Origin: a virus
Strand: one strand, 5' to 3'
DNA length: 27,871 nucleotides
IMG/VR virus record: IMGVR_UViG_3300046506_000200
Span: 1 to 27,871 of that record
The notes under the pieces are model-generated. The model was not told the DNA's origin. It worked only from the letters and a program-made list of their open reading frames with translations, and made no database searches. This document shows positions 4,590-23,777 of the stretch, one piece after another (position 1 is the first letter of the stretch; each line of letters begins with the position of its first letter). The position numbers were made by a program, and so were the translations under genes.

Positions 4590-4900
4590 GGTTTTATCCT
4601 CAGGACCAGCGCAACGAGCCCCGCGCCGTCAGGCTCCAGCCGGACAATGGAGTAGTCACCTCCACCGTCCAGCGCGGGCAGCTCCACACTCATGCTTTGC
4701 CCCTTGTCTACGCCAGTGGCATCGTCGATCCGGACCACGAAGGTGGGCTCTCGCAAGCCCGTGTTGAGCCGACCGATTGCGGGCTGCAACCAGGGTGCCG
4801 AGAACATCCCGAACACCGGCCGGCCTTCAATGGTTGCCGAATCCCCCAGCGTTTCGAACACGATGTTGTCGACCTCGCTGACCAGATCCCGAAAGCCCAT
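4586..4900 (-). CDS. Head-tail joining protein (lambda FII-like)
   Basis: Small connector expected to bind the portal ring and provide the tail attachment surface. The 104-residue product starts MGFRDLVSEVDNIVFETLGD, close to the N-terminal pattern of gpFII-type proteins, and ends in a beta-rich part with YSIVRLEPDGAGLVAL. The ATG at 4898-4900 is chosen because it lies 2 bp after the capsid stop; the longer frame begins with a TTG inside the capsid gene. Order capsid-FII-Z agrees with lambda. Confidence 0.8.
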   Translation of the reverse strand: MGFRDLVSEVDNIVFETLGDSATIEGRPVFGMFSAPWLQPAIGRLNTGLREPTFVVRIDDATGVDKGQSMSVELPALDGGGDYSIVRLEPDGAGLVALVLRIKP

Positions 4901-4902
4901 GG

Positions 4903-5898
4903 TCAGAGTGTCAGCCGGATGACGGCACGTGGTCGGGTGCAAAGGTGCAGCGGGTTGGATTGCGCCTCGCCCGCTACGCCCTTGCCGAATGGCATTGGCT
5001 CGATCTTGCTGTAGTACGGAATGCCGAGCGTGTTGACGGTTTCCATATAGTCCGCAGGTGCGAAGGCCGACTTAAACAGATCGGGAACACCCTCAGGCAC
5101 CAGTTGGGCCTCGTCATCACCGATGAAAGGAATCTTGCCGACCTTCCCGCGATAACGCTCCCAGGTGATGCCGCCAAAGTCGAAGGACTCGCGACCATCG
5201 CCGCGCAGTGCAGCGGCCTGCAGGGTGGCTTTGTACGTCTCGATGACTGAGGGGTGACCGATCAGCTTCGTCCAGAAAGTCTTGCCGCAAAACGCAACGG
5301 ACCCGCTTGTAGTGACGTTGCCCAGCGCATCCTCCTGCATATCCAGCGCTTCAACGCACTTGACCTGAACCAGTGTGTCTTTATTCGCGAACTCCATAGA
5401 CAGGGTTTGTCGCTGCACGCCAAATCGCTCAAAAATGTCCAACAGCACCGTGGTCCCATCCGCGTCGAGAACCTGGCCCTTGATCGCCCCCATGCGCTGA
5501 AATTCATGGGTGATGTCCAGCTGGCGTTTCACCTTGGCGAGTCGTTGGTTGACCACGTCCTGAACCGCCTGCAGTTCGCTCTGGCTGCCAAACGCGCGAA
5601 TGCCCTGAATCTCATCCGCCTTGATGCTGAACCGTTGTGGCAGGTGGACGGTGTTGAACGGGATCAGTTGCCGCTTGCTGCCTCCTACCACCAGGCCGGA
5701 CGTACCGCGCTCACCGGCTGGCACAAGGGCAAGGGTATCGCCGTCCTTCTCCACCTGCACGGTGAGCGTGGTTACGCCCTCCTCCTCGAAAATACCGAGG
5801 CTTGAAATCCGGCCCGGCAGGTATTCCTGCTCGTTGATTGCGGTGGTCAGGCTTGAGACGCTGAACGCGTCATCTTCGAAAATGCCGATGTCGGCCAT
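4903..5898 (-). CDS. Major capsid protein (lambda gpE family)
   Basis: Main shell protein of the icosahedral head. The product has 331 residues, normal for the gpE group. Recognisable blocks are MADIGIFEDDAFSVSSLTTAI at the start, then YLPGRISSLGIFEEEGV, a central INKLPQ-like stretch seen here as NTVHLPQRFSIKADEIQGIR near residues 81-100, and a C-terminal FGKGVAGEAQSNPLHLCTRP block typical of the family. It follows the decoration gene across a small gap that contains an intrinsic terminator hairpin, unusual just ahead of the most abundant virion protein. Confidence 0.95.
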   Translation of the reverse strand: MADIGIFEDDAFSVSSLTTAINEQEYLPGRISSLGIFEEEGVTTLTVQVEKDGDTLALVPAGERGTSGLVVGGSKRQLIPFNTVHLPQRFSIKADEIQGIRAFGSQSELQAVQDVVNQRLAKVKRQLDITHEFQRMGAIKGQVLDADGTTVLLDIFERFGVQRQTLSMEFANKDTLVQVKCVEALDMQEDALGNVTTSGSVAFCGKTFWTKLIGHPSVIETYKATLQAAALRGDGRESFDFGGITWERYRGKVGKIPFIGDDEAQLVPEGVPDLFKSAFAPADYMETVNTLGIPYYSKIEPMPFGKGVAGEAQSNPLHLCTRPRAVIRLTL

Positions 5899-14254: not shown

Positions 14255-16464
14255 AAGCAGGCCTCCGGTTTTGGTTCAACAGCCAATGCGCAAGCGCCAC
14301 CCCAGCCATCAGGCTTCTTGTAAGCCCATGGCCGGACCTTACTTTTTGCCAGTGCCGGAAGACGCACGCGCCGCCATCCAAGCCGGTGCATGATTGCCCC
14401 TACGCGCATCTGCTCAGGTTTGCCCCAGTGGCCGAAGTCCAACTTCAAGGCCTGTGCGAGTACCTCGCTGCCAGTGGTGGTGGCCCCAATCTGGGACTCC
14501 TCAAGCCAGTTCAATATCGGCCCCTCCCACTCATCCACTACGAAGCGCTCGTCCTGCTCCTCAGTGAACATCGCCGCCTCGTCCTTGTTGACCCACCAGC
14601 GCTCGCCAGAGAGGTAGCAGAACATCGCCTCAGCCCACAGTTGATCTCGTATCTCAGTCAACAACTCTATGTCGGCCTTAGTGCACAACACCGGCCAATA
14701 CCTACGGTTTCCAGTAGGGTCCTTTAAGTACTCGCCCTGGTTAGTCGTACCCACGAAAACACACTGACGTGGTACATCGTTCGTTCTTCTGCCGTAGCTC
14801 TCGCGGTAGGTATCAGTGGACGCGGAGAAAAACTGCTTCGCCTTCGTACTTTCAGCCTTGTTGAAGCTGTCCAGCTCACCCAGTTCGATGAGCCATTTGC
14901 CGCGCAACGCCATGAAAGCTTCCTTGTCACCCAGGACAAAAGGGGTATCCATGAACCAGTCGCCACCGAGGGCCGCTACCGCCGAAGATTTACCCTCTCC
15001 CTGCAGACCTTCAAGAATAAGTACGCAGTCCGCTTTGCACCCCGGTTTCATGACCCGAGCAACGGCTGCGATCAACCAGCGCTTCCCGACCTTGGTCACA
15101 TACTCGCTGGACGCTACCCCCATCACATCGGTCAACCACTGCTCAAGCCTCGAAACACGGTCCCACTCCAGTCGATGCAGGTAGTCGCGCACGGGATGGA
15201 AGGCGTGGTCATGCGCAACAACGCTCACAGCCTCGATCACGCTCGACGGCTTAACCCGAAGGTTGTACTGCTGAGCCAGCCACTTCATCACGCGCGTATC
15301 ATCGATGTCCGCCCAAGCCCCGGTTTCACCGCCGTAAGGAGCGGTCCGCACCTTGACGATCTTGGAGCTGAACGCGCAGTAGCCGATTACGCCCTTCCAC
15401 CGCTCATCATTCGCCAGAATCATCTCAACATTGGACATATGGGCGATCAGGGCACCATTCTCGGTGCGGGCCAGACCATCCTTCCAGCCGCCTACGGCGG
15501 GTGGCTTGATGACTGCCGCCACCTGCCGACGCACGGCCTCCAGTCCCTCCGCACAATGCAGGTCGTTGAAGTCAGTCCACTTGTCTTTACGCTCACCTGA
15601 AAAGATCGGGCCGACAACCTGCCCCCCGACGATCAGAGCAGCGTTGCTGCCCTTCTCCTCCCCCGGGTTCCATGGCTCGCCGTTCGGACGTTTCGTCTTC
15701 CAGTCATCATCGCGGCAGACAACCAACGGCCGACCAGGGAATCGATCACGCATCGTCTTGGCAACCTCCCTGAGGTTGCCTGCATCAAACGCCACAGCGA
15801 CGGTCGCTGATGTCGCCATGTGCAGGCTGGCGCCAGTGGCGTATCCCTCACAGACCAGCACCGGATCACCTGGCTCCGGGTACGGGCCAATGAGATGAAA
15901 CGCACCCTCTTTGGACATGCCGTAAGGCCAATAGGACTTATCGCGTCCTGTGCTCTCCTGAGCCTCAGGAAAGATCACCTGCAGGCCGACGATCTGATCG
16001 CGCGCGTTGCACATCGGCACAAGGATCGCCCCGGTCCGGGGCGCGTAACGCACCCCAAACCCAACAATCTGTTTACGGTCCAGATAGGCGCTTTTGCCTT
16101 TGTCCGGCATCCGCTCAAACAAGCTACCCGCACGATTCGCAGCACGCCGCGCCGCATTGGCAGCCGTCTCGGCAGCACGGCGCTTGGCATCCTCCTGCCG
16201 AGCGCGCATCACCTCGCGCTCCTCGGCGCTCATGCGACCGGCCTTCACCTTGACCTTATGCGTGTCACCCGTGCGCCAGTCGCCGAAACTGCCGAAGATC
16301 AGCGTCTCGTTTTTTTCCGTGTGATGCTCATGCACCACATACCAGCCGTTCTTTTCCTTGCCCTTGTCCTGCGTGGTCTTACAGCGAGTCAGCTTGCCGA
16401 ACACCAACGGCAGCTTTGGCTCAAGACCATAATCGCCGAACTGGGCCAGTACCTCATCTAACAT
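14251..16464 (-). CDS. Primase-helicase (Toprim + VapE/D5-like SF3 helicase)
   Basis: Replication initiator of 737 residues. A Toprim-like core lies at about 200-270 (DPVLVCEGYATGASLHMA near 205, VAVAFDAGNL, then PLVVCRDDD). An SF3/VapE-type ATPase lies at about 420-640: Walker A LEGLQGEGKSS near 484-493, KWLIELGELDSF as the acidic motif, and VFVGTTNQGEYLKDPTGNRR as motif C. The C-terminus (about 655-737) looks like a winged helix that could bind the origin. AAGGAGG, 5 nt before the ATG at 16462-16464, fixes the start; a longer frame has no such signal. No zinc finger is visible at the N-terminus. It overlaps both neighbours. Confidence 0.9.
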   Translation of the reverse strand: MLDEVLAQFGDYGLEPKLPLVFGKLTRCKTTQDKGKEKNGWYVVHEHHTEKNETLIFGSFGDWRTGDTHKVKVKAGRMSAEEREVMRARQEDAKRRAAETAANAARRAANRAGSLFERMPDKGKSAYLDRKQIVGFGVRYAPRTGAILVPMCNARDQIVGLQVIFPEAQESTGRDKSYWPYGMSKEGAFHLIGPYPEPGDPVLVCEGYATGASLHMATSATVAVAFDAGNLREVAKTMRDRFPGRPLVVCRDDDWKTKRPNGEPWNPGEEKGSNAALIVGGQVVGPIFSGERKDKWTDFNDLHCAEGLEAVRRQVAAVIKPPAVGGWKDGLARTENGALIAHMSNVEMILANDERWKGVIGYCAFSSKIVKVRTAPYGGETGAWADIDDTRVMKWLAQQYNLRVKPSSVIEAVSVVAHDHAFHPVRDYLHRLEWDRVSRLEQWLTDVMGVASSEYVTKVGKRWLIAAVARVMKPGCKADCVLILEGLQGEGKSSAVAALGGDWFMDTPFVLGDKEAFMALRGKWLIELGELDSFNKAESTKAKQFFSASTDTYRESYGRRTNDVPRQCVFVGTTNQGEYLKDPTGNRRYWPVLCTKADIELLTEIRDQLWAEAMFCYLSGERWWVNKDEAAMFTEEQDERFVVDEWEGPILNWLEESQIGATTTGSEVLAQALKLDFGHWGKPEQMRVGAIMHRLGWRRVRLPALAKSKVRPWAYKKPDGWGGACALAVEPKPEACF

Positions 16465-17376: not shown

Positions 17377-17895
17377 TTAACCACGGTCAGCCCCCCGAGT
17401 GGTCTGATTCACGTAGCACGCGCGATTCAACATCCCCAGCAACCCCTGAATCCCCCGGAACACCTGCAGGCGAATCTCGGCCAGCTCGGAATCATTCACC
17501 TGACCATCACCGATACTCTTCGCCCAGGTATCCGCAAGATCCGCAACCTGCCGAAAATAGGCAGCAATGCCGACCGTTAACGTCTCCGGCATATCACGGG
17601 TGTAAGCCTCTGCGAGTTCCTGCCAGATCGTGTCCCCCACCAAAGCATGCACGGCATCAAGGATGCGCCGGTCTTTGGTCAGCTCCAGGATCTCCGCGAA
17701 CTCCTGAACGTTTACGATGTGGCTCGGGTGCGTAGGTGAAAGCTTGTGCTGCAGCGTGGACGGGTTCCTGCCGGTGGTGGCGGCAATGGCTGCGGCTCCG
17801 CCCGTGTAGTCACGGGCTGCGTGGTACAGCGCCAGCTCGAGCGTAAGAACTTCCCTTTGTGCCCGATCAACGCAATTTAGAGCGATACGGCTCAT
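17377..17895 (-). CDS. Phage regulatory protein CII-like (CP76 family)
   Basis: DNA-binding regulator of the early leftward operon, in the cII position after cro. The 172-residue product has LALYHAARDYTGGAAAIAATT (about residues 20-40) and an HTH-like GRNPSTLQHKLSPTHPSHIV, followed by NVQEFAEILELTKDRRILDAVHAL (about 60-83), the pattern of the Phage_CP76 family. The C-terminal half is helical and may oligomerise. The start at 17893-17895 is chosen because AAGGGA lies about 9 nt upstream; a longer reading frame begins inside the non-coding region. Whether it activates a repressor-establishment or integrase promoter, like lambda CII, cannot be told. Confidence 0.8.
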   Translation of the reverse strand: MSRIALNCVDRAQREVLTLELALYHAARDYTGGAAAIAATTGRNPSTLQHKLSPTHPSHIVNVQEFAEILELTKDRRILDAVHALVGDTIWQELAEAYTRDMPETLTVGIAAYFRQVADLADTWAKSIGDGQVNDSELAEIRLQVFRGIQGLLGMLNRACYVNQTTRGADRG

Positions 17896-17940
17896 GGCAT
17901 TAATCCCTTCAAGTTGCCAGTGCCGCGCGGGACGCAATGG

Positions 17941-17949
17941 TGGTAAATT
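17941..17949 (+). promoter_or_regulatory. Extended -10 element, candidate promoter of the ncRNA
   Basis: TGGTAAATT gives a TG-N-TAAATT extended -10 on the plus strand, 4 of 6 matches to TATAAT. No good -35 is present at normal spacing; TTGCCA (17914-17919) is 24 bp away. Initiation would fall near 17956, the first base of the structured stretch. Confidence 0.3.
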
Positions 17950-17955
17950 GCCCGC

Positions 17956-18218
17956 GTGGCTGAGAGGCCCAAACGCCGGCTAGACCCGTAAAGTCGAAAC
18001 CGGCACCGTGCCGAGGCAAGCAATCCATTGCTCACCTCTGGCGCAACAGCTGCCCTATCTGTGGTGGAGACGGCAGCAACACCAAGGCATCCGTGCCTTG
18101 GAAACTCGGTAGCGACTGACGGTTTGCATGTGGTGTGCCCGTCAGTTGTTGCCGAGACCTGACAGCGTTGTGGTGACGCTGTCGGGGGGAACTGGGCGGC
18201 CTTTGGGTCGCCTTTTTT
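17956..18218 (+). ncRNA. Candidate structured phage RNA between cro and the CII-like gene
   Basis: About 260 nt with no ORF on either strand and six successive helices: GCCGG/CCGGC (17975-17979/18000-18004), GAGG..AGCAA/TTGCT..CCTC (18013-18038), GCTGCC/GGCAGC (18049-18054/18072-18077), CCAAGGCA/TGCCTTGG with a TCCG loop (18082-18101), CTCGG plus ACTGACGG paired with CCGTCAGT plus CCGAG (18105-18156), and GACAGCG/CGCTGTC (18161-18183). An intrinsic terminator on the plus strand ends it. The first 50 nt have a loosely tRNA-like look (GTGGCTGAGAGG..., CCGTAAA loop) but no T-arm. It is antisense to the cro-CII leader, which suggests a regulatory RNA analogous to OOP or to C4/CI-type immunity RNAs. 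Confidence 0.6.
18195..18218 (+). terminator. Rightward intrinsic terminator ending the ncRNA
   Basis: Stem GGCGGCC (18195-18201) with GGTCGCC (18206-18212), containing one G-T pair, 4-nt loop, followed directly by six Ts (18213-18218) on the plus strand. It stops just short of the cro stop codon, so the plus-strand RNA would not extend antisense into cro. Confidence 0.85.
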
Positions 18219-18220
18219 CC

Positions 18221-18412
18221 TTATGCGGCGTTTTCTATAAGGCCTTTGGTGTGACGGATTTTGAGTGATCCCCCAGAGAGAATGTTGAGCTGAAATTGCC
18301 TAAGCAACGGGACAAAGTCGCCCCATTGAGATACTGCGGCTGGCGATATCTGAAGGGCGTTCGCAAGCTTGGCTTTCCCTTTGAAATGTTTCACTGCATC
18401 TGAGGTGAGCAT
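18221..18412 (-). CDS. cro: Cro-like repressor (P22 Cro type)
   Basis: Small early repressor that favours lytic growth. The 63-residue product MLTSDAVKHFKGKAKLANAL... has the helix-turn-helix KLANALQISPAAVSQW (about residues 13-28), followed by a short tail LNILSGGSLKI. Both the HTH and the tail match the layout of P22 Cro. The ATG at 18410-18412 is chosen because it gives the family length and has AGGA upstream; the longer frame would run through the operators. It is the first gene of the leftward transcript and diverges from cI. Confidence 0.88.
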   Translation of the reverse strand: MLTSDAVKHFKGKAKLANALQISPAAVSQWGDFVPLLRQFQLNILSGGSLKIRHTKGLIENAA

Positions 18413-18511: not shown

Positions 18512-19129
18512 ATGAATATGTCAGAACGTGTTGCCATCGCCCTCGCCCAATGCCCTCGCACACCTAGGGATCTCGCAAAGGAGATCGGAGTGAGTGTGGC
18601 TCGGATAAGTCAGCTGAAATCTGGGATGGGAGGGATCAAAGCAGAAAATCTTTTCGCCTTGGCCCGCGCTACAGGATTTTCGCCACAATGGCTGGCAGAG
18701 GGGATCGGCAAACCTCAAAGCTCCAGCCAAGCGGTGGATGAATTCTCAGCCATACCGCCATTTGACGCCAAATCAGGGGACGGCTACCTAGTTTTTGACC
18801 GTTCTTGGATTAAAGGGCTTTGCGCCGACGAGGTGTCAGTGAAATATTACCTCGTCAAAAGCAGCAATATGGCGCCCACTATCGCTGCGCACGATTTGGT
18901 ACTTATTGACGAATCAGATAAAACACCAATTGATCGTCAGGTCTATCTTATTATTAAACCCGACGGCACACCGGTGATTAAACGACTTATTCAGACAATA
19001 AGTAATGACTGGCTCATTACTAATGGTGATGACAATGGACGTTATTTACCGACAGAGCAATTGGATGACCAGCAGGTTAAAGCGCTCGATGTCGCAGGGA
19101 AGGTTATTTGGCGAGGGGGAAAAATCTAG
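18512..19129 (+). CDS. cI: CI-like repressor, S24/LexA-type with altered catalytic serine
   Basis: Prophage repressor of 205 residues. The N-terminal HTH is near residues 17-38 (TPRDLAKEIGVSVARISQLKSG). The C-terminal S24-type domain spans about 92-200. Its catalytic box, canonically GDSMEPT, reads SSNMAPT (117-123), so the nucleophile Ser is Asn119; the Lys of the dyad appears present as Lys157 (PVIKRL). No obvious Ala-Gly or Cys-Gly cleavage site is seen in the linker. RecA-stimulated self-cleavage is therefore unlikely. The start at 18512 has no Shine-Dalgarno, suggesting leaderless or weak translation; the ATG at 18518 is an alternative. Confidence 0.9.
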   Translation: MNMSERVAIALAQCPRTPRDLAKEIGVSVARISQLKSGMGGIKAENLFALARATGFSPQWLAEGIGKPQSSSQAVDEFSAIPPFDAKSGDGYLVFDRSWIKGLCADEVSVKYYLVKSSNMAPTIAAHDLVLIDESDKTPIDRQVYLIIKPDGTPVIKRLIQTISNDWLITNGDDNGRYLPTEQLDDQQVKALDVAGKVIWRGGKI

Positions 19130-19185: not shown

Positions 19186-19845
19186 TCACGCGCCGAGATC
19201 GAAATCTGCCTGTATCGTAAACGTCAAAACACTCATAAATCTGGCGATATCATCTTTAGTTGCGTTCGGGGGACACCTTTCAATAAACTCAGCAAAACTA
19301 GAAACAATTGCATAGTTAAAGTCATCCCACTCTCCAAAAGCATATGAAAATCTGACCAGATCGCACATCAGAAATGTTTCTTTAGCCTTATCGCCATTTT
19401 TTGGTCGATGAGTGATCCTTCCGCGAATCACAATTAGCTCGAAATGGTGTGAGTAAACATCGAAATACGGATGTACTATCTTATAGCTGCCAGAGTCTAC
19501 TGGTAACTTTTCCGCCTTTCGCAGCTTTCTGGTCAAGACATCACTATCCGACTTCGCAATATTGCATGCCTTGCATGACACAACCAAGTTATACGGCTCA
19601 TACAGATACTGCGGATGTAATGCTTTAGGGATAATGTGGTCAACATCCCAGGTCATCCCATGAAGCTCCTTTTTTTCCATCCGACAGTAAGCACACCGAT
19701 ATTTTTGCTGAGCGAGACAATGATCTCGAACACCCTTACGAATCGTCGCAACAGGACCAGTAACGCTATTCCATTGATGATGATCTCGGCCATCATAAGA
19801 CGATATATATTTCGAGTCCGGCTCTGAAAATTCAAATACTTTCAT
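19186..19845 (-). CDS. HNH endonuclease, PtuB-like effector
   Basis: Probable nuclease effector of a two-gene defence system. The 219-residue product carries a zinc-stabilised HNH core: C51-x2-C54 (YRCAYCRM), the catalytic pair D69-H70 in WDVDHIIPK, N86 in EPYNLVVSC, and C91-x2-C94 with N95 and K98 (SCKACNIAKSD). The C-terminal 110 residues are outside the HNH fold and may contact the ATPase. The ATG at 19843-19845 is preferred because AGGTG lies about 6 nt upstream; it begins 1 bp after the ATPase stop, so the two are cotranscribed. Base use is visibly AT-richer than in the flanking phage genes, a sign of transfer. Confidence 0.85.
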   Translation of the reverse strand: MKVFEFSEPDSKYISSYDGRDHHQWNSVTGPVATIRKGVRDHCLAQQKYRCAYCRMEKKELHGMTWDVDHIIPKALHPQYLYEPYNLVVSCKACNIAKSDSDVLTRKLRKAEKLPVDSGSYKIVHPYFDVYSHHFELIVIRGRITHRPKNGDKAKETFLMCDLVRFSYAFGEWDDFNYAIVSSFAEFIERCPPNATKDDIARFMSVLTFTIQADFDLGA

Positions 19846-19846
19846 T

Positions 19847-21196
19847 TCAGTCACCTAAAACCCGTACTTGTTCAATTAAATGCCAAACTGGATCTGTATC
19901 TGGAATTTCGCGTTGAATCTCCATCAACCACTGAGCCTTAAGCAGATCATCATCACCAAGCCCCTCCCGCTTTGCCAACTTGGAGAGAAGTGTAAGCGCC
20001 AAACGAATCAAGTATTCATTACCCTGTCCTGGTGCACGGAATATCTGCGCTAACTGATAGTCTGCGGACTTCTTAGCATACTCTCCCGAGTGATACAGCT
20101 TATTATCTTCGAGGCTCAAGACAAACCCATTGGACGTCGTCAAGCCGGAAACTATTTGAGGCGAATGTGTAGCTATAATGAAATGACAACCTTTGTAATC
20201 GGAGAACGCAGCTTGTAGCTGAGCAATAATATCTTCCTGCCATTTCGGATGGAGGCTAATTTCAGGTTCATCTATGCAGATGAGTGATCCATATTGGATC
20301 GCGCCTGCAATCCCTAAAATCATAGTTAACATGCACTGCTGACCGGAACTTGCCTGAGAAAGTCTTAACCGGTTTCCCGTCTTTAACTGACTTAATGTCA
20401 GATCAGAAATTCGAACTAATCCAGCTTTGAGAAGTTCTACAAGATCGCTCAGTTCCTCGAACTGCTCACCGAAATGTCGCTGGGTTAAATTTATCTCTAT
20501 GTTGAACTTGTTTTTGCTGCTCGCGTATGCATGAAAACGGCTGTATTTCTCCATTATCTCAATCTGAACCGGATCGAGAGAGTGCATGAATAAGTCATCT
20601 TTCAATAAGTCAACATTTCGCGACGGAGTGTTCTTCCAGTTGTAATCAAGCCCTGAAGGATCAAATACAAACTTAAAGTCCATAATAGGTGCGAAATCGA
20701 GATACAAAAATATTTCGGCTAACCTGTCAGACTTTCTATCATAGTCTTGCAGACCTTCAATAATAGCTATCAAACTCGGGGTCAGCGAAGAAAGGCTCCC
20801 TCCTCCAGAAGGAGCTATATAATGATAATCTGCAGTGATAGCATTTTTTTTTGTGTAATTTGGAGAGGGAAATCGGTCGTGCCGTCCAGTAGATACTGCT
20901 ATCACATTAGTCGGAGCCGCAATGGACAGAGCGTCGAGAACCACATCTGGATGAGGAGATAATTCTGAATAATATTTCCAGGAAGCACCCGGAGTGTTGT
21001 GGATGTATCGATCTCGTGGCGACCCTTGTCCCTTAAATATGAAATGGCTTACGACTTTTCTAAGCAATCTGCTTTTGCCAGTCGCATTCTGCCCTACCAC
21101 TAAAGTAAATATGTTTTCTCGGTCTCCCCAACTGCTGGGAGAACTCAACTCAACCAGTTTTCGATCTGTAGCAACAGTCGCAATGCGGAAAGCCAT
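19847..21196 (-). CDS. ABC-type ATPase (AAA_21), PtuA-like
   Basis: Sensor/regulator ATPase paired with the HNH nuclease. The 449-residue product has Walker A GQNATGKS (35-42), an ABC signature-like LSQASSGQQ near 280, Walker B LICIDEPE near 302-309, HPKW shortly after, and the switch His in IIATHSPQI near 335. An insert with VIAVSTGRHDRFPS (about 97-110) is of the kind found in ATPases paired with HNH nucleases in Septu and some retron systems. It lacks a long coiled coil, unlike SMC proteins. AAGGGA lies 6 nt before the ATG. No reverse transcriptase is nearby, so it is not a retron. Confidence 0.85.
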   Translation of the reverse strand: MAFRIATVATDRKLVELSSPSSWGDRENIFTLVVGQNATGKSRLLRKVVSHFIFKGQGSPRDRYIHNTPGASWKYYSELSPHPDVVLDALSIAAPTNVIAVSTGRHDRFPSPNYTKKNAITADYHYIAPSGGGSLSSLTPSLIAIIEGLQDYDRKSDRLAEIFLYLDFAPIMDFKFVFDPSGLDYNWKNTPSRNVDLLKDDLFMHSLDPVQIEIMEKYSRFHAYASSKNKFNIEINLTQRHFGEQFEELSDLVELLKAGLVRISDLTLSQLKTGNRLRLSQASSGQQCMLTMILGIAGAIQYGSLICIDEPEISLHPKWQEDIIAQLQAAFSDYKGCHFIIATHSPQIVSGLTTSNGFVLSLEDNKLYHSGEYAKKSADYQLAQIFRAPGQGNEYLIRLALTLLSKLAKREGLGDDDLLKAQWLMEIQREIPDTDPVWHLIEQVRVLGD

Positions 21197-21371: not shown

Positions 21372-21400
21372 TTGACATATATCGTTAAGACATCTTTAAT
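21372..21400 (+). promoter_or_regulatory. PL-like early rightward promoter
   Basis: TTGACA (21372-21377), a 17-bp spacer and TTTAAT (21395-21400): perfect -35 and optimal spacing. The first gene of the rightward operon begins at 21436. TTAAG-type half-sites like those in the cI-cro operators occur around it (GCTTA 21348-21352 / TAAGC 21363-21367; TTAAG inside the spacer), so repression by CI/Cro is plausible. Confidence 0.75.
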
Positions 21401-21435
21401 ACCCTCACTCTCCACCACAGAGCGAGGCAACAACC

Positions 21436-21612
21436 ATGCACACCACAGCATCTCTGCACGTCCACCCGGCCGCTGCTAACCCGTTCCACGTCTTCGAAAT
21501 CCGCCGCCTGGCCCGCGAATCAGGCTGCGCTTTCGTCCCGTCCAAGCCGAAGGTTTCCCCAGCCACCCGCCCTGCCCCCGGCACGCCAAACGGCGGAGGG
21601 CATGCCGCATGA
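21436..21612 (+). CDS. Small leader-proximal ORF (58 aa)
   Basis: I recognise no family in this 58-residue product (MHTTASLHVHPAAANPFHVF...). GAGG (21423-21426) is 9 nt before the ATG. Residues 1-32 could include one helix (FEIRRLARESGC), and the C-terminus is Pro/Gly-rich. Its stop overlaps the next start (GCATGA at 21608-21612 region), so it is probably a real, translationally coupled first gene of the early rightward operon. Such small first genes in this position include host-takeover or CIII/Kil-like peptides, but nothing here identifies one. Confidence 0.6.
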   Translation: MHTTASLHVHPAAANPFHVFEIRRLARESGCAFVPSKPKVSPATRPAPGTPNGGGHAA

Positions 21613-22169
21613 GGACCTTCACCCTAAGCGATCAGTCGCTGCAGTTGCTCAACGCCCAGGTAAACCTGAGCGGCACCTTCAATCACACGCTGCGCTCTGC
21701 TGAACGGCCCGCGCTGCCCTTTCGGTTGATCGTTGATCGCGAAGCCCAAAGCACTGCTTTCATCGTCGAGATCGGCGAGCAGCGCCACTCAATAGTTCTG
21801 CGCAACGGCAAGACCACTCACCGCAAACTGGTGGATTTCATCACTGAAATTGCGAACGGATGCATCGAGCCGAGCCGGTCAGAGCCGAGTTGCGCCAAGC
21901 TAAATGAAGACCTGCGGGAGCAAGTGTTCGACGTCATCGGGCGCGGGGGCGCAGTGACGCTTGAGCTCGGCCTTGAGCTGCCTGTCAACGTCGCGGTACA
22001 CCGGAACCGGACTCGCTCAGCAGTGACCACCATTATGTCGATTGGCGTGAAACGTCCTCGCACCAAGTGTTTCACCGTTTGCGGAACCGACGCCGAGATC
22101 TACGCGCAAGTGTCCGAATCCCTCAACCACCTGATTACCGTTGCGACGCCTGCAGCGGAAGCCGCGTGA
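21609..22169 (+). CDS. Hypothetical early phage protein
   Basis: Unrecognised 186-residue product. It has an N-terminal part rich in beta-type sequence (FRLIVDREAQSTAFIVEIGEQ...), a central acidic helix (KLNEDLREQVFDVIGRGG, about 97-115), and a C-terminal part with VKRPRTKCFTVCGTDAEIYAQV. No membrane segment or known motif is visible. It is coupled to the preceding ORF by a 4-bp overlap and is followed 10 bp later by a KilAC-like gene. Confidence 0.75.
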   Translation: MRTFTLSDQSLQLLNAQVNLSGTFNHTLRSAERPALPFRLIVDREAQSTAFIVEIGEQRHSIVLRNGKTTHRKLVDFITEIANGCIEPSRSEPSCAKLNEDLREQVFDVIGRGGAVTLELGLELPVNVAVHRNRTRSAVTTIMSIGVKRPRTKCFTVCGTDAEIYAQVSESLNHLITVATPAAEAA

Positions 22170-22179
22170 GGGAGACGAC

Positions 22180-22464
22180 ATGGAACGTAGCCTGGAAAAA
22201 ACCGCGAAATACTTCGGCCTCACCCGGCCCAAGCTGATCAAGCTGATGCGGGATAAAGACCTGTTCAACGCTCTCAACCTGCCCACGTATCCCCACCGTG
22301 ACCGCGCTTACCTGCGCGTGAAAGCCGGTAGCTGGTATCACCACGAACTGGGTATGCAGTACAGCCAGTCAACCCGGATCAGACAGGCCGGCATTCCCTG
22401 GCTTGCTGATCAACTCGACCTTGCCCTGCCCGCTCTCCCGGCTGACCGCCGTGACGTGGCCTAG
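22180..22464 (+). CDS. KilAC/antirepressor-type DNA-binding protein
   Basis: Product of 94 residues: MERSLEKTAKYFGLTRPKLIK..., then RDKDLFNALNLP, a YLRVKAGSWYHHE block, STRIRQAGIPWLADQL at the end. The order (helix-turn-helix, small insert, aromatic strand, then a 'G-x-x-W-L' helix) resembles the KilAC domain of phage antirepressors. In larger Ant proteins this domain follows an N-terminal Bro or KilA-N domain, which is missing here. GGAG lies shortly before the ATG at 22180. Given the non-cleavable look of CI, a role in relieving repression is attractive but unproven. Confidence 0.6.
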   Translation: MERSLEKTAKYFGLTRPKLIKLMRDKDLFNALNLPTYPHRDRAYLRVKAGSWYHHELGMQYSQSTRIRQAGIPWLADQLDLALPALPADRRDVA

Positions 22465-22624: not shown

Positions 22625-22991
22625 CCAGGCCATGGAGAAATTGATGCTCACTCCCGCCAATGAGCGCACGCCTGAGCAGATCCAGGGCGTTGCCCGGTTC
22701 ATCTGCAACGCAGCCGGCACGCCCATCGATTCCCCTGCATCAAGGCTGTTGGATCTGACGGAGTTGCATGCTGCGGCGTTAACCCTGGGCGCGGGACTGG
22801 ACTCCCCAACCGTTAACACCTACCTCAAGCTGAGCAAGGCAGAGCAGCCGCAACTTTCGACGTTCATTCACTATCCAGCGTTAGGGGATTGCGCGGGGTT
22901 GGTCCTCTCAGGGCGGGGAGACTCTGCTGCCTCTGTGATGAGCAACCTGCGCCAAAAAGCCTTGGAGCACTGCGCGCTGGTGGATGAATGA
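22605..22991 (+). CDS. Hypothetical early phage protein
   Basis: Unrecognised 128-residue product starting MEHRLIDQAMEKLMLTP; GGAAGAGG directly upstream supports the ATG at 22605 rather than the longer frame. It appears all-helical (TPEQIQGVARFICNAAG, LLDLTELHAAALTLGAG, SAASVMSNLRQKALEHCAL), with no known motif. It overlaps the preceding gene by 20 bp and the PrtN-like gene by 4 bp. Confidence 0.7.
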   Translation: MEHRLIDQAMEKLMLTPANERTPEQIQGVARFICNAAGTPIDSPASRLLDLTELHAAALTLGAGLDSPTVNTYLKLSKAEQPQLSTFIHYPALGDCAGLVLSGRGDSAASVMSNLRQKALEHCALVDE

Positions 22992-23317
22992 CTTCCCGCG
23001 TCGACCAACAGCCACTCCGGTTGCTCCCAGCCCCGGATACGGCCACCGTCGAACTGCTTTACCGCACCTTCGGCGATGTCCTCATCCCCCTTGAAAAGCT
23101 GCGCAGCCAGTACTTCCGGAACCTCAACGAGCGTTCGTTCGGCGCGGAGATTGAAAGCGGCCGCATCCAGCTCCCGGTCACCACCCTGGACAGCAGCCGC
23201 AAAGCGCCGAAGTTCGTACACATCCGCCACATCGCCGCACTGATCGACATCCGCGCTTACAAGGCGGACGAGGAAATGAACAGCGAAGCATCCAGCACCG
23301 CTGAATCCACGCAATAA
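22988..23317 (+). CDS. PrtN-family (pyocin activator) regulator
   Basis: Product of 109 residues. It has the family layout: TVELLYRTFGDVLIPLEKL (about 20-38), SQYFRNLNERSFGAEIESG (about 40-58), RIQLPVTTLDSSRKAPKFVHI and a final helix RHIAALIDIRAYK. In Pseudomonas, PrtN activates pyocin genes by binding upstream P-boxes when PrtR is inactivated. In prophages its target is not known; it may control phage late genes or interfere with host pyocin regulation. Its ATG overlaps the upstream stop. Confidence 0.82.
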   Translation: MTSRVDQQPLRLLPAPDTATVELLYRTFGDVLIPLEKLRSQYFRNLNERSFGAEIESGRIQLPVTTLDSSRKAPKFVHIRHIAALIDIRAYKADEEMNSEASSTAESTQ

Positions 23318-23360
23318 CCCATCCGGCCGCCACCACCGGCCCACATTGAGAGCACACCAC

Positions 23361-23777
23361 ATGACAACCATGCAGACGTACATCCTTTTCAGCCTGATCC
23401 TGATGGCCCTTTTGCTGTACTACCTCGGGTATCACTTCGGCAGCAAAGACGGTCGCAACAACGGGCTTGCCATAGGCCGAAAGCTTGGCCGCGAAGCGGC
23501 TCACATCAAGGTTCGAGAACTGGAGAACACGCTAGAGGATTCGTATCGCCAATACGGCCGGCTTGAGCATCAGTTTCGGCTGGCTGCTGCGAACGCCAAA
23601 CTCGGCGCCGAAGCACATCAGACCCTGATGGACATAGCGGACAAGCTGCAGTTGTCCTCAGAGACATTCAGCGCGCTGAACTCAAAGTCGCAGGCCGAGA
23701 AGACACTCAAGCTTCGAGAGGAAGCGCTGGCGCTCGCTGAAGTCATCCAGCCGGAAGCTCAGGAGCGTGCAGCATGA
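23361..23777 (+). CDS. Membrane-anchored coiled-coil protein
   Basis: Product of 138 residues with one N-terminal membrane segment (about residues 6-23, YILFSLILMALLLYYLGY), followed by a basic stretch (GSKDGRNNGLAIGRKLGREA) and a long helical, coiled-coil-like region from about residue 48 to the end. The ATG at 23361 is the likely start; an internal ATG at 23370 is possible. No family is recognised. Such proteins are common in early phage operons; cytoplasmic orientation of the coil is expected. Its stop overlaps the next start. Confidence 0.72.
   Translation: MTTMQTYILFSLILMALLLYYLGYHFGSKDGRNNGLAIGRKLGREAAHIKVRELENTLEDSYRQYGRLEHQFRLAAANAKLGAEAHQTLMDIADKLQLSSETFSALNSKSQAEKTLKLREEALALAEVIQPEAQERAA

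Follow-up and report, generated by a model that had tools for sequence, protein, structure and literature searches.

Organization of the switch region

The window, by which the whole stretch of DNA analysed is meant (27,871 nt; IMG/VR virus record IMGVR_UViG_3300046506_000200), is a temperate-phage record of the Pseudomonas type. A left arm with cII, a structured RNA and cro is followed by a rightward cI, a PtuAB-like cassette and a rightward operon, the 3′ end of which carries a methyltransferase, an excisionase and an integrase. The switch region comprises:

17377..17895, minus strand: cII, CP76 family (PF06892, 2.8e-20; phrog_101), proposed activator of the RNA
17956..18218, plus strand: candidate antisense RNA of ~263 nt with about eight hairpins (fold and pair covariation; 5′ end estimated)
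18221..18412, minus strand: cro (PF14549, 8.1e-20)
18512..19129, plus strand: cI repressor (HTH and S24 domain matches)

Between cI and the rightward operon (19186-21196, minus strand), a gene pair encoding an HNH protein and an AAA ATPase has strong matches to the PtuB/PtuA (Septu) models (6e-70 and 1e-114) and is probably a cargo defence cassette.

A conserved structured RNA

The plus strand of 17941-18218 is predicted to fold at -145 kcal/mol, compared to -107.3 ± 5.0 kcal/mol for dinucleotide shuffles (z -7.5; 0 of 200 shuffles as stable), while the minus strand is less stable (-117.7 kcal/mol, z -3.7). In an alignment of 69 distinct sequences, 97.4% of the helix cells are paired, a value that falls to ~40% when the helix partners are slid, and changes on both sides occur in 29 of the 69 helix pairs (shuffles, 13.9 ± 1.9; slid controls, ≤8). 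Because G-U cells far outnumber A-C cells in the helices of the aligned relatives (396 to 63), the RNA folds as the plus strand. The feature is a real structured RNA that is selected as RNA, with the following elements, all on the plus strand:

18049..18077, plus strand: hairpin 1, loop UGUGGUG (18060-18066), pairing segment 18058-18070 (13 nt perfect complement to site A, 21409-21421)
18082..18101, plus strand: UCCG-loop hairpin between the pairing hairpins (helix 6, both sides changed in 5 of 6 pairs)
18106..18155, plus strand: hairpin 2, loop UGUGGUG (18129-18135), pairing segment 18127-18138 (12 nt to site C, 23352-23363; 10 nt to site B, 21438-21447); helices 7-9 covary
18159..18186, plus strand: hairpin 3, loop UGUGGUG (18169-18175) (helix 10, both sides changed in 6 of 10 pairs)
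18194..18218, plus strand: intrinsic terminator, stem 18194-18213 with a U run (from sequence; kept in aligned relatives)

The loops are mostly unpaired in the predicted ensemble of the window RNA. An additional helix proposed by RNAalifold that made use of the U tract was rejected, as it competes with the terminator.

Much of a preliminary description of this stretch is borne out by these results, including a structured plus-strand RNA lying between cro and the CII-like gene on the strand opposite to both, a strong U-tract terminator and the lack of reading frames, there being no plus-strand ORF of at least 50 aa within 17941-18218. The extended -10 that it placed at the front is present (TGGTAAATT), with the stretch beginning on the motif and the RNA itself expected to begin near 17956. 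Its suggestion that the first 50 nt are faintly tRNA-like found no support, with 0 genes predicted by ARAGORN and no tRNA match in Rfam, nor does the RNA belong to the C4 family it named for comparison: cmscan returned no credible Rfam match, RF01695 included, for either the window (E up to 1) or 17850-18300 (E up to 10). Weak matches to SorX and STnc70 fell far under the gathering scores and were discarded. No description of such an RNA in these phages was found in the open-access literature and, judged from its sequence, it would appear to be a previously undescribed variant of the phage antisense immunity RNAs that falls outside of C4.

A putative CII-dependent promoter

Two elements precede the RNA:

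17895..17922, plus strand: putative CII operator, an inverted repeat of TGGCA (17895-17899), N15 and TGCCAGTG (17915-17922), overlapping the cII start and conserved in relatives
17941..17949, plus strand: extended -10 of the RNA promoter, TGGTAAATT, at a constant distance from TGCCAGTG in divergent relatives

Based on the position of the extended -10, the RNA is expected to start near 17956. The spacing is kept even where the relatives are divergent (e.g., TGCTATAGT in locus L093), and TGGCA-N15-TGCC(A) occurs in 101 of 109 distinct promoters, with N14 in a further seven; in the Halomonas-type phages the RNA promoter has CATGGCA-N15-TGCCATG. The half-sites lie at about -59 and -38 from the estimated RNA start, a geometry that fits the spacing reported for phage 186, where CII binds an inverted repeat whose half-sites, at -38 and -58 relative to the pE start, are separated by two helical turns, pE being a promoter convergent with pR (PMC6593788). 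Due to this agreement with 186 and the CP76-type cII gene alongside, CII probably activates the RNA promoter. The promoter motif recurs exactly, as TTGCCAGTGCC, at 14346-14356 (plus strand) inside a VapE-like gene, where it may be a chance occurrence or a further CII site.

Complementary sites in the early operon

Within the window, the RNA has its two longest perfect complements at 21409-21421 (13 nt, with 18058-18070) and 23352-23363 (12 nt, with 18127-18138); both span a UGUGGUG loop and fall at translation starts in the operon beyond cI. While matches of 12-13 nt are not significant by length alone in 28 kb, their conservation carries weight. A third complement, of 10 nt at 21438-21447, covers the first codons of gene 1; a further 12-nt match inside a late gene looks like chance. 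The targets are about 3.2 and 5.1 kb from the RNA, behind another promoter. The operon features, all on the plus strand, are:

21372..21400, plus strand: promoter-like TTGACA-N17-TTTAAT of the target operon (read from sequence)
21403..21427, plus strand: gene 1 leader hairpin, 7-nt loop CCACCAC, 3′ arm with GAGG (Shine-Dalgarno); CACCA core looped in relatives
21409..21421, plus strand: site A, predicted to pair with hairpin 1 (complementarity and conservation; 13-nt counterpart in Halomonas phage H4907)
21436..21612, plus strand: gene 1, 58 aa, phrog_35204, function unassigned; ATGA overlap with gene 2
21438..21447, plus strand: site B, first codons of gene 1 (10 nt complementary to hairpin 2)
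21609..22169, plus strand: gene 2, 186 aa, phrog_15582, function unassigned
22177..22464, plus strand: ANT/KilAC-domain protein, antirepressor-like (PF03374, 1e-6; phrog_63, 1.2e-5)
22988..23317, plus strand: PrtN-like/excisionase-like protein (PF11112, 6.8e-30; phrog_1300)
23352..23363, plus strand: site C, over the start codon of gene 23361 (12 nt complement; covaries with hairpin 2)
23361..23777, plus strand: gene 23361, 138 aa, hydrophobic N-terminus (read from sequence), phrog_28176

The operon promoter is overlapped by TTAAGACATCTTTAA (21378-21400, plus strand), which resembles TTAA-rich repeats between cI and cro and is possibly a CI operator. The operons of the window, the P. aeruginosa phage Haddon and H4907 all encode an ANT-domain protein, and the first two also a PrtN-like protein; gene 1 and gene 2 overlap at ATGA in the cases inspected.

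When start regions were ranked by duplex energy, the target sites came out on top, except for the RNA's own antisense and one unsupported ORF. Site A was present in 121 of the 141 RNA-bearing loci with at least 1.5 kb of downstream sequence, and several of the others are too short to reach the site. In the reverse direction, a blind search for site A, the pattern of which itself imposes the invariance of the core across the collected sites, identified 70 loci, all 70 with an ATG no more than 20 nt further on. Upstream sequence is sufficient in 52 of these, and in 50 of the 52 the loop motif is present, on the same strand. Of the two exceptions, one is on a contig whose RNA lies in a different locus (L125), and the other is probably a truncated locus. 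Site C is missing in about half of the Pseudomonas loci, often because the flanking sequence is short.

Of 117 distinct gene 1 leaders, 116 place the CACCA core in a hairpin loop, with a mean hairpin stability of -12.3 kcal/mol compared to -4.2 kcal/mol with shuffled flanks, amongst which the core is looped in 53%. The predicted folds present complementary hairpin loops in both RNAs, as expected of a kissing-loop antisense RNA, and the modelled structures look like loop-loop recognition followed by growth of the duplex. The start of the target transcript might cut the lower stem of the leader hairpin.

Two further partners were considered for the loops. A role as a sponge for CsrA/RsmA was rejected, GGA being present in only some loops; UGGUG would fit a sponge for the CACCA of tRNA 3′ ends, yet the phage targets explain more.

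Distribution amongst Pseudomonas and Halomonas phages

Among the CII-anchored IMG/VR loci, 73 rows, counting the window, contain a near full-length copy; it lies beside cII, with its position and orientation preserved, and is about 77-96% identical. Amongst annotated phages, DNA similarity returned a single 44-nt match, to Haddon, pointing to a divergent class. In these wider relatives, among them the P. aeruginosa phages Haddon and vB_Pae_U5, hairpins with UGUGGUG-type loops are retained but differ in number and stems. In bacterial genomes, copies of the RNA with promoter and terminator were found in Pseudomonas species; the many chance matches to the loop pattern in genomes of other phyla had neither the promoter motif nor a site A nearby.

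Three loci (L003, at about 4831-4956, L004 and L042) have a second, decayed copy of the RNA that adjoins cII, about 630 nt from the intact copy, lacking the promoter motif and the terminator and with small reading frames between the copies. In Haddon, a hypothetical protein annotated opposite the RNA region (CDS0011; L203 5215-5355) is probably spurious, and at the end of the H4907 genome (L377 10280-10407, plus strand) there is a partial tmRNA-like match (E 1.4e-9, under the gathering score) that is perhaps an attachment site.

Phages that share the RNA and its sites mostly encode CI proteins with no relationship, or only a very remote one, to the CI of the window, based on automatic ORF picks of which some may be wrong. 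The RNA-target code therefore appears common to several likely immunity groups. At the locus itself, CI is of many unrelated types while cII, the RNA and the target are conserved, as if repressor genes were exchanged as cassettes.

Covariation between the RNA and its targets

The letters of the RNA and of its distant sites change together. Amongst the Pseudomonas phages, about 100 loci combine GCATGTGGTGTGC in hairpin 2 with CACACCACATG at site C, and hairpin 2 with GCATTTGGTTTGC is found with site C CAAACCAAATG in all four loci that show both, with no crossed cases, though related sequences make these counts non-independent and the four-locus switch may be one or two events. The compensatory pairs are CATGTGGTGTGC/CACACCACATG vs CATTTGGTTTGC/CAAACCAAATG, and L060 and L143 each have one departure from the matching. 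Hairpin 2 and site B likewise co-occur (42 loci with both, 14 with neither and 6 discordant, a distribution that kinship inflates). The Haddon RNA contains a segment, CUCUGUGGUGGAGAG, that is perfectly complementary to the target CUCUCCACCACAGAG of that phage.

The layout is repeated in Halomonas phage H4907, whose own, different RNA is complementary over 13 nt to site A (TACCCCACCACGG), over 13 nt to site B (TGCAAACCAATGC) and over 14 nt to a site ahead of a DUF2303 gene (GCAAACCAATGCAA), with a changed loop letter in the 13-nt site A. IMG/VR relatives of H4907 pair GCAAACC, GCTAACC and GCACACC with GGTTTGC, GGTTAGC and GGTGTGC, respectively, at site B or C. Across the Halomonas phages, matches of 12-16 nt persist at site B or C despite the changed letters, while in most of the Halomonas-type phages site A pairs over 8-9 nt only. 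Covariation of this kind between RNA and target sequences is as expected of a trans-encoded antisense RNA.

Proposed mechanism and alternative explanations

It is quite probable, in our assessment, that the RNA belongs to the lysogeny switch and acts in trans, as an antisense RNA that silences the early operon to the right of cI. CII of the CP76 family would bind TGGCA-N15-TGCCA and turn on the promoter overlapping the cII start; the resulting ~263-nt RNA, whose anatomy is read from sequence, would run toward cI and stop at its own terminator. Its exposed loops, mostly UGUGGUG, would kiss the complementary loop of the leader hairpin at site A, and further pairing of the RNA could occur around the starts of gene 1 (site B) and the downstream gene 23361 (site C). 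Such duplexes would most likely keep ribosomes from binding at gene 1 and, via the overlapping genes, perhaps affect gene 2 and the ANT-domain gene, so that the lytic/antirepressor side would stay silent while CI takes over. Because the operon carries ANT-domain and PrtN-like proteins, its silencing would favour lysogeny. As the matching letters of RNA and target change together across the Pseudomonas and Halomonas viruses, the RNA is therefore probably a second, RNA-based lock on lytic growth.

The preliminary description had proposed an RNA layer of immunity control acting on the cro-cII leader. An antisense RNA with C4-like logic is still the best reading, with its targets relocated: the best-supported sites lie in trans, in the operon to the right of cI. 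Complementarity to the cro-cII mRNA follows automatically from the position of the RNA, whereas targets in trans would also account for the recurring loop motif, the distant and conserved start-codon sites and the covariation of sites and RNA, which the cis position does not.

The position and direction of the promoter, with cI downstream on the same strand, would also fit a pRE/pE-type transcript in which the RNA is mainly the structured leader of a CII-activated cI message, the terminator serves as an attenuator and the pairing is secondary. A conserved strong terminator before cro argues against this, though some read-through to cI is possible, and a leader would predict neither complementary sites at distant start codons nor their covariation, so we regard this as unlikely.

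The same pairing could have the opposite sign, because the leader hairpin already hides the Shine-Dalgarno sequence: with GAGG in its 3′ arm, a duplex of 13-16 nt with the loop and upper stem would melt the hairpin, free the Shine-Dalgarno of gene 1 and activate translation. Though a genuine competitor, this reading seems quite unlikely given that the best hybrid in the window covers the GGCA adjoining the Shine-Dalgarno and that sites B and C are on or just past start codons, where pairing normally blocks ribosomes. Repression of gene 1 translation is likely and offers the simplest reading of the sequence, given where the sites fall (at start codons or immediately to either side of them) and the overlap of gene 1 with gene 2.

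That the RNA is instead a cis-antisense of the cro-cII mRNA that lowers cII or cro, in the manner of OOP and as first envisaged, is very unlikely; it is fully complementary by position and convergent transcription may interfere, but cis pairing needs no conserved loop letters because both strands change together, and here the loops are nearly invariant and repeated, with partners elsewhere. A DNA site for one regulator, present as an identical short sequence at both loci, can be dismissed as extremely improbable, the orientation being always complementary relative to transcription, both copies lying in hairpin loops and the flanking letters matching differently for each hairpin-site pair.

Beyond the switch of a single phage, antisense silencing in trans might extend to incoming phages. 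Because the RNA and target loops stay matched across phages with unrelated or very distant CI, it is conceivable, as a tentative proposal, that the RNA of a prophage could shut down the early operon when heteroimmune phages superinfect and so define a common RNA immunity group in Pseudomonas; a strictly CII-dependent promoter would count against it.

Comparison with known regulatory RNAs and biological implications

The 7-nt hairpin loops complementary between antisense and target are shared with RNAI-RNAII of ColE1, in which RNAI is transcribed opposite its target, unlike the separate loci found here. C4, the immunity RNA of P1 and P7, is about a third of the length of the RNA described here. 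C4 blocks expression of an operon that begins with the small gene icd and contains an antirepressor gene, thereby reinforcing the protein repressor (PMC8198154, PMC12197685). The sequence suggests the same logic here, with an RNA complementary to the start of a small first gene in an operon with an ANT-domain gene. Whereas C4 lies within its target operon, this RNA (17956-18218) is encoded elsewhere in the switch region and not upstream in the operon of its targets (21409-21447 and 23352-23363), and it has repeated loops and no Rfam kinship. The sar RNA of P22 pairs with the translation start of the ant mRNA and helps to establish lysogeny (PMC12197685); it is 68/69 nt in length, compared to ~263 nt for an RNA that lies away from its targets and may act at up to three sites in one operon. 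By analogy, the logic resembles that of P1 C4 and P22 sar without detectable sequence kinship. Lambda OOP is likewise a small terminated RNA of the cI-cII region, but it is cis-antisense to cII, whereas this RNA, starting near 17956 and past the cII start at 17895, does not overlap the cII coding sequence and has its putative targets in another operon. The repeat spacing and the CP76-type cII neighbour are like those of pE/CII in 186; the transcript from pE carries cI, whereas here cI is preceded by a terminated, structured RNA.

These results describe a conserved regulatory RNA that very many Pseudomonas prophages, as well as Halomonas phages, carry in their lysis-lysogeny switch. The covariation of the RNA with its distant targets makes the mechanism testable by a few point mutants, two of which already exist in nature. 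Several small phage genes of unassigned function gain a regulatory context. If the proposed mechanism is true, a CII of the 186 type would control an antisense RNA, tying an RNA layer of immunity to the protein layer as in P1 and, unlike in P1, the RNA would act on a separate operon and be conserved across phages with differing repressor types.
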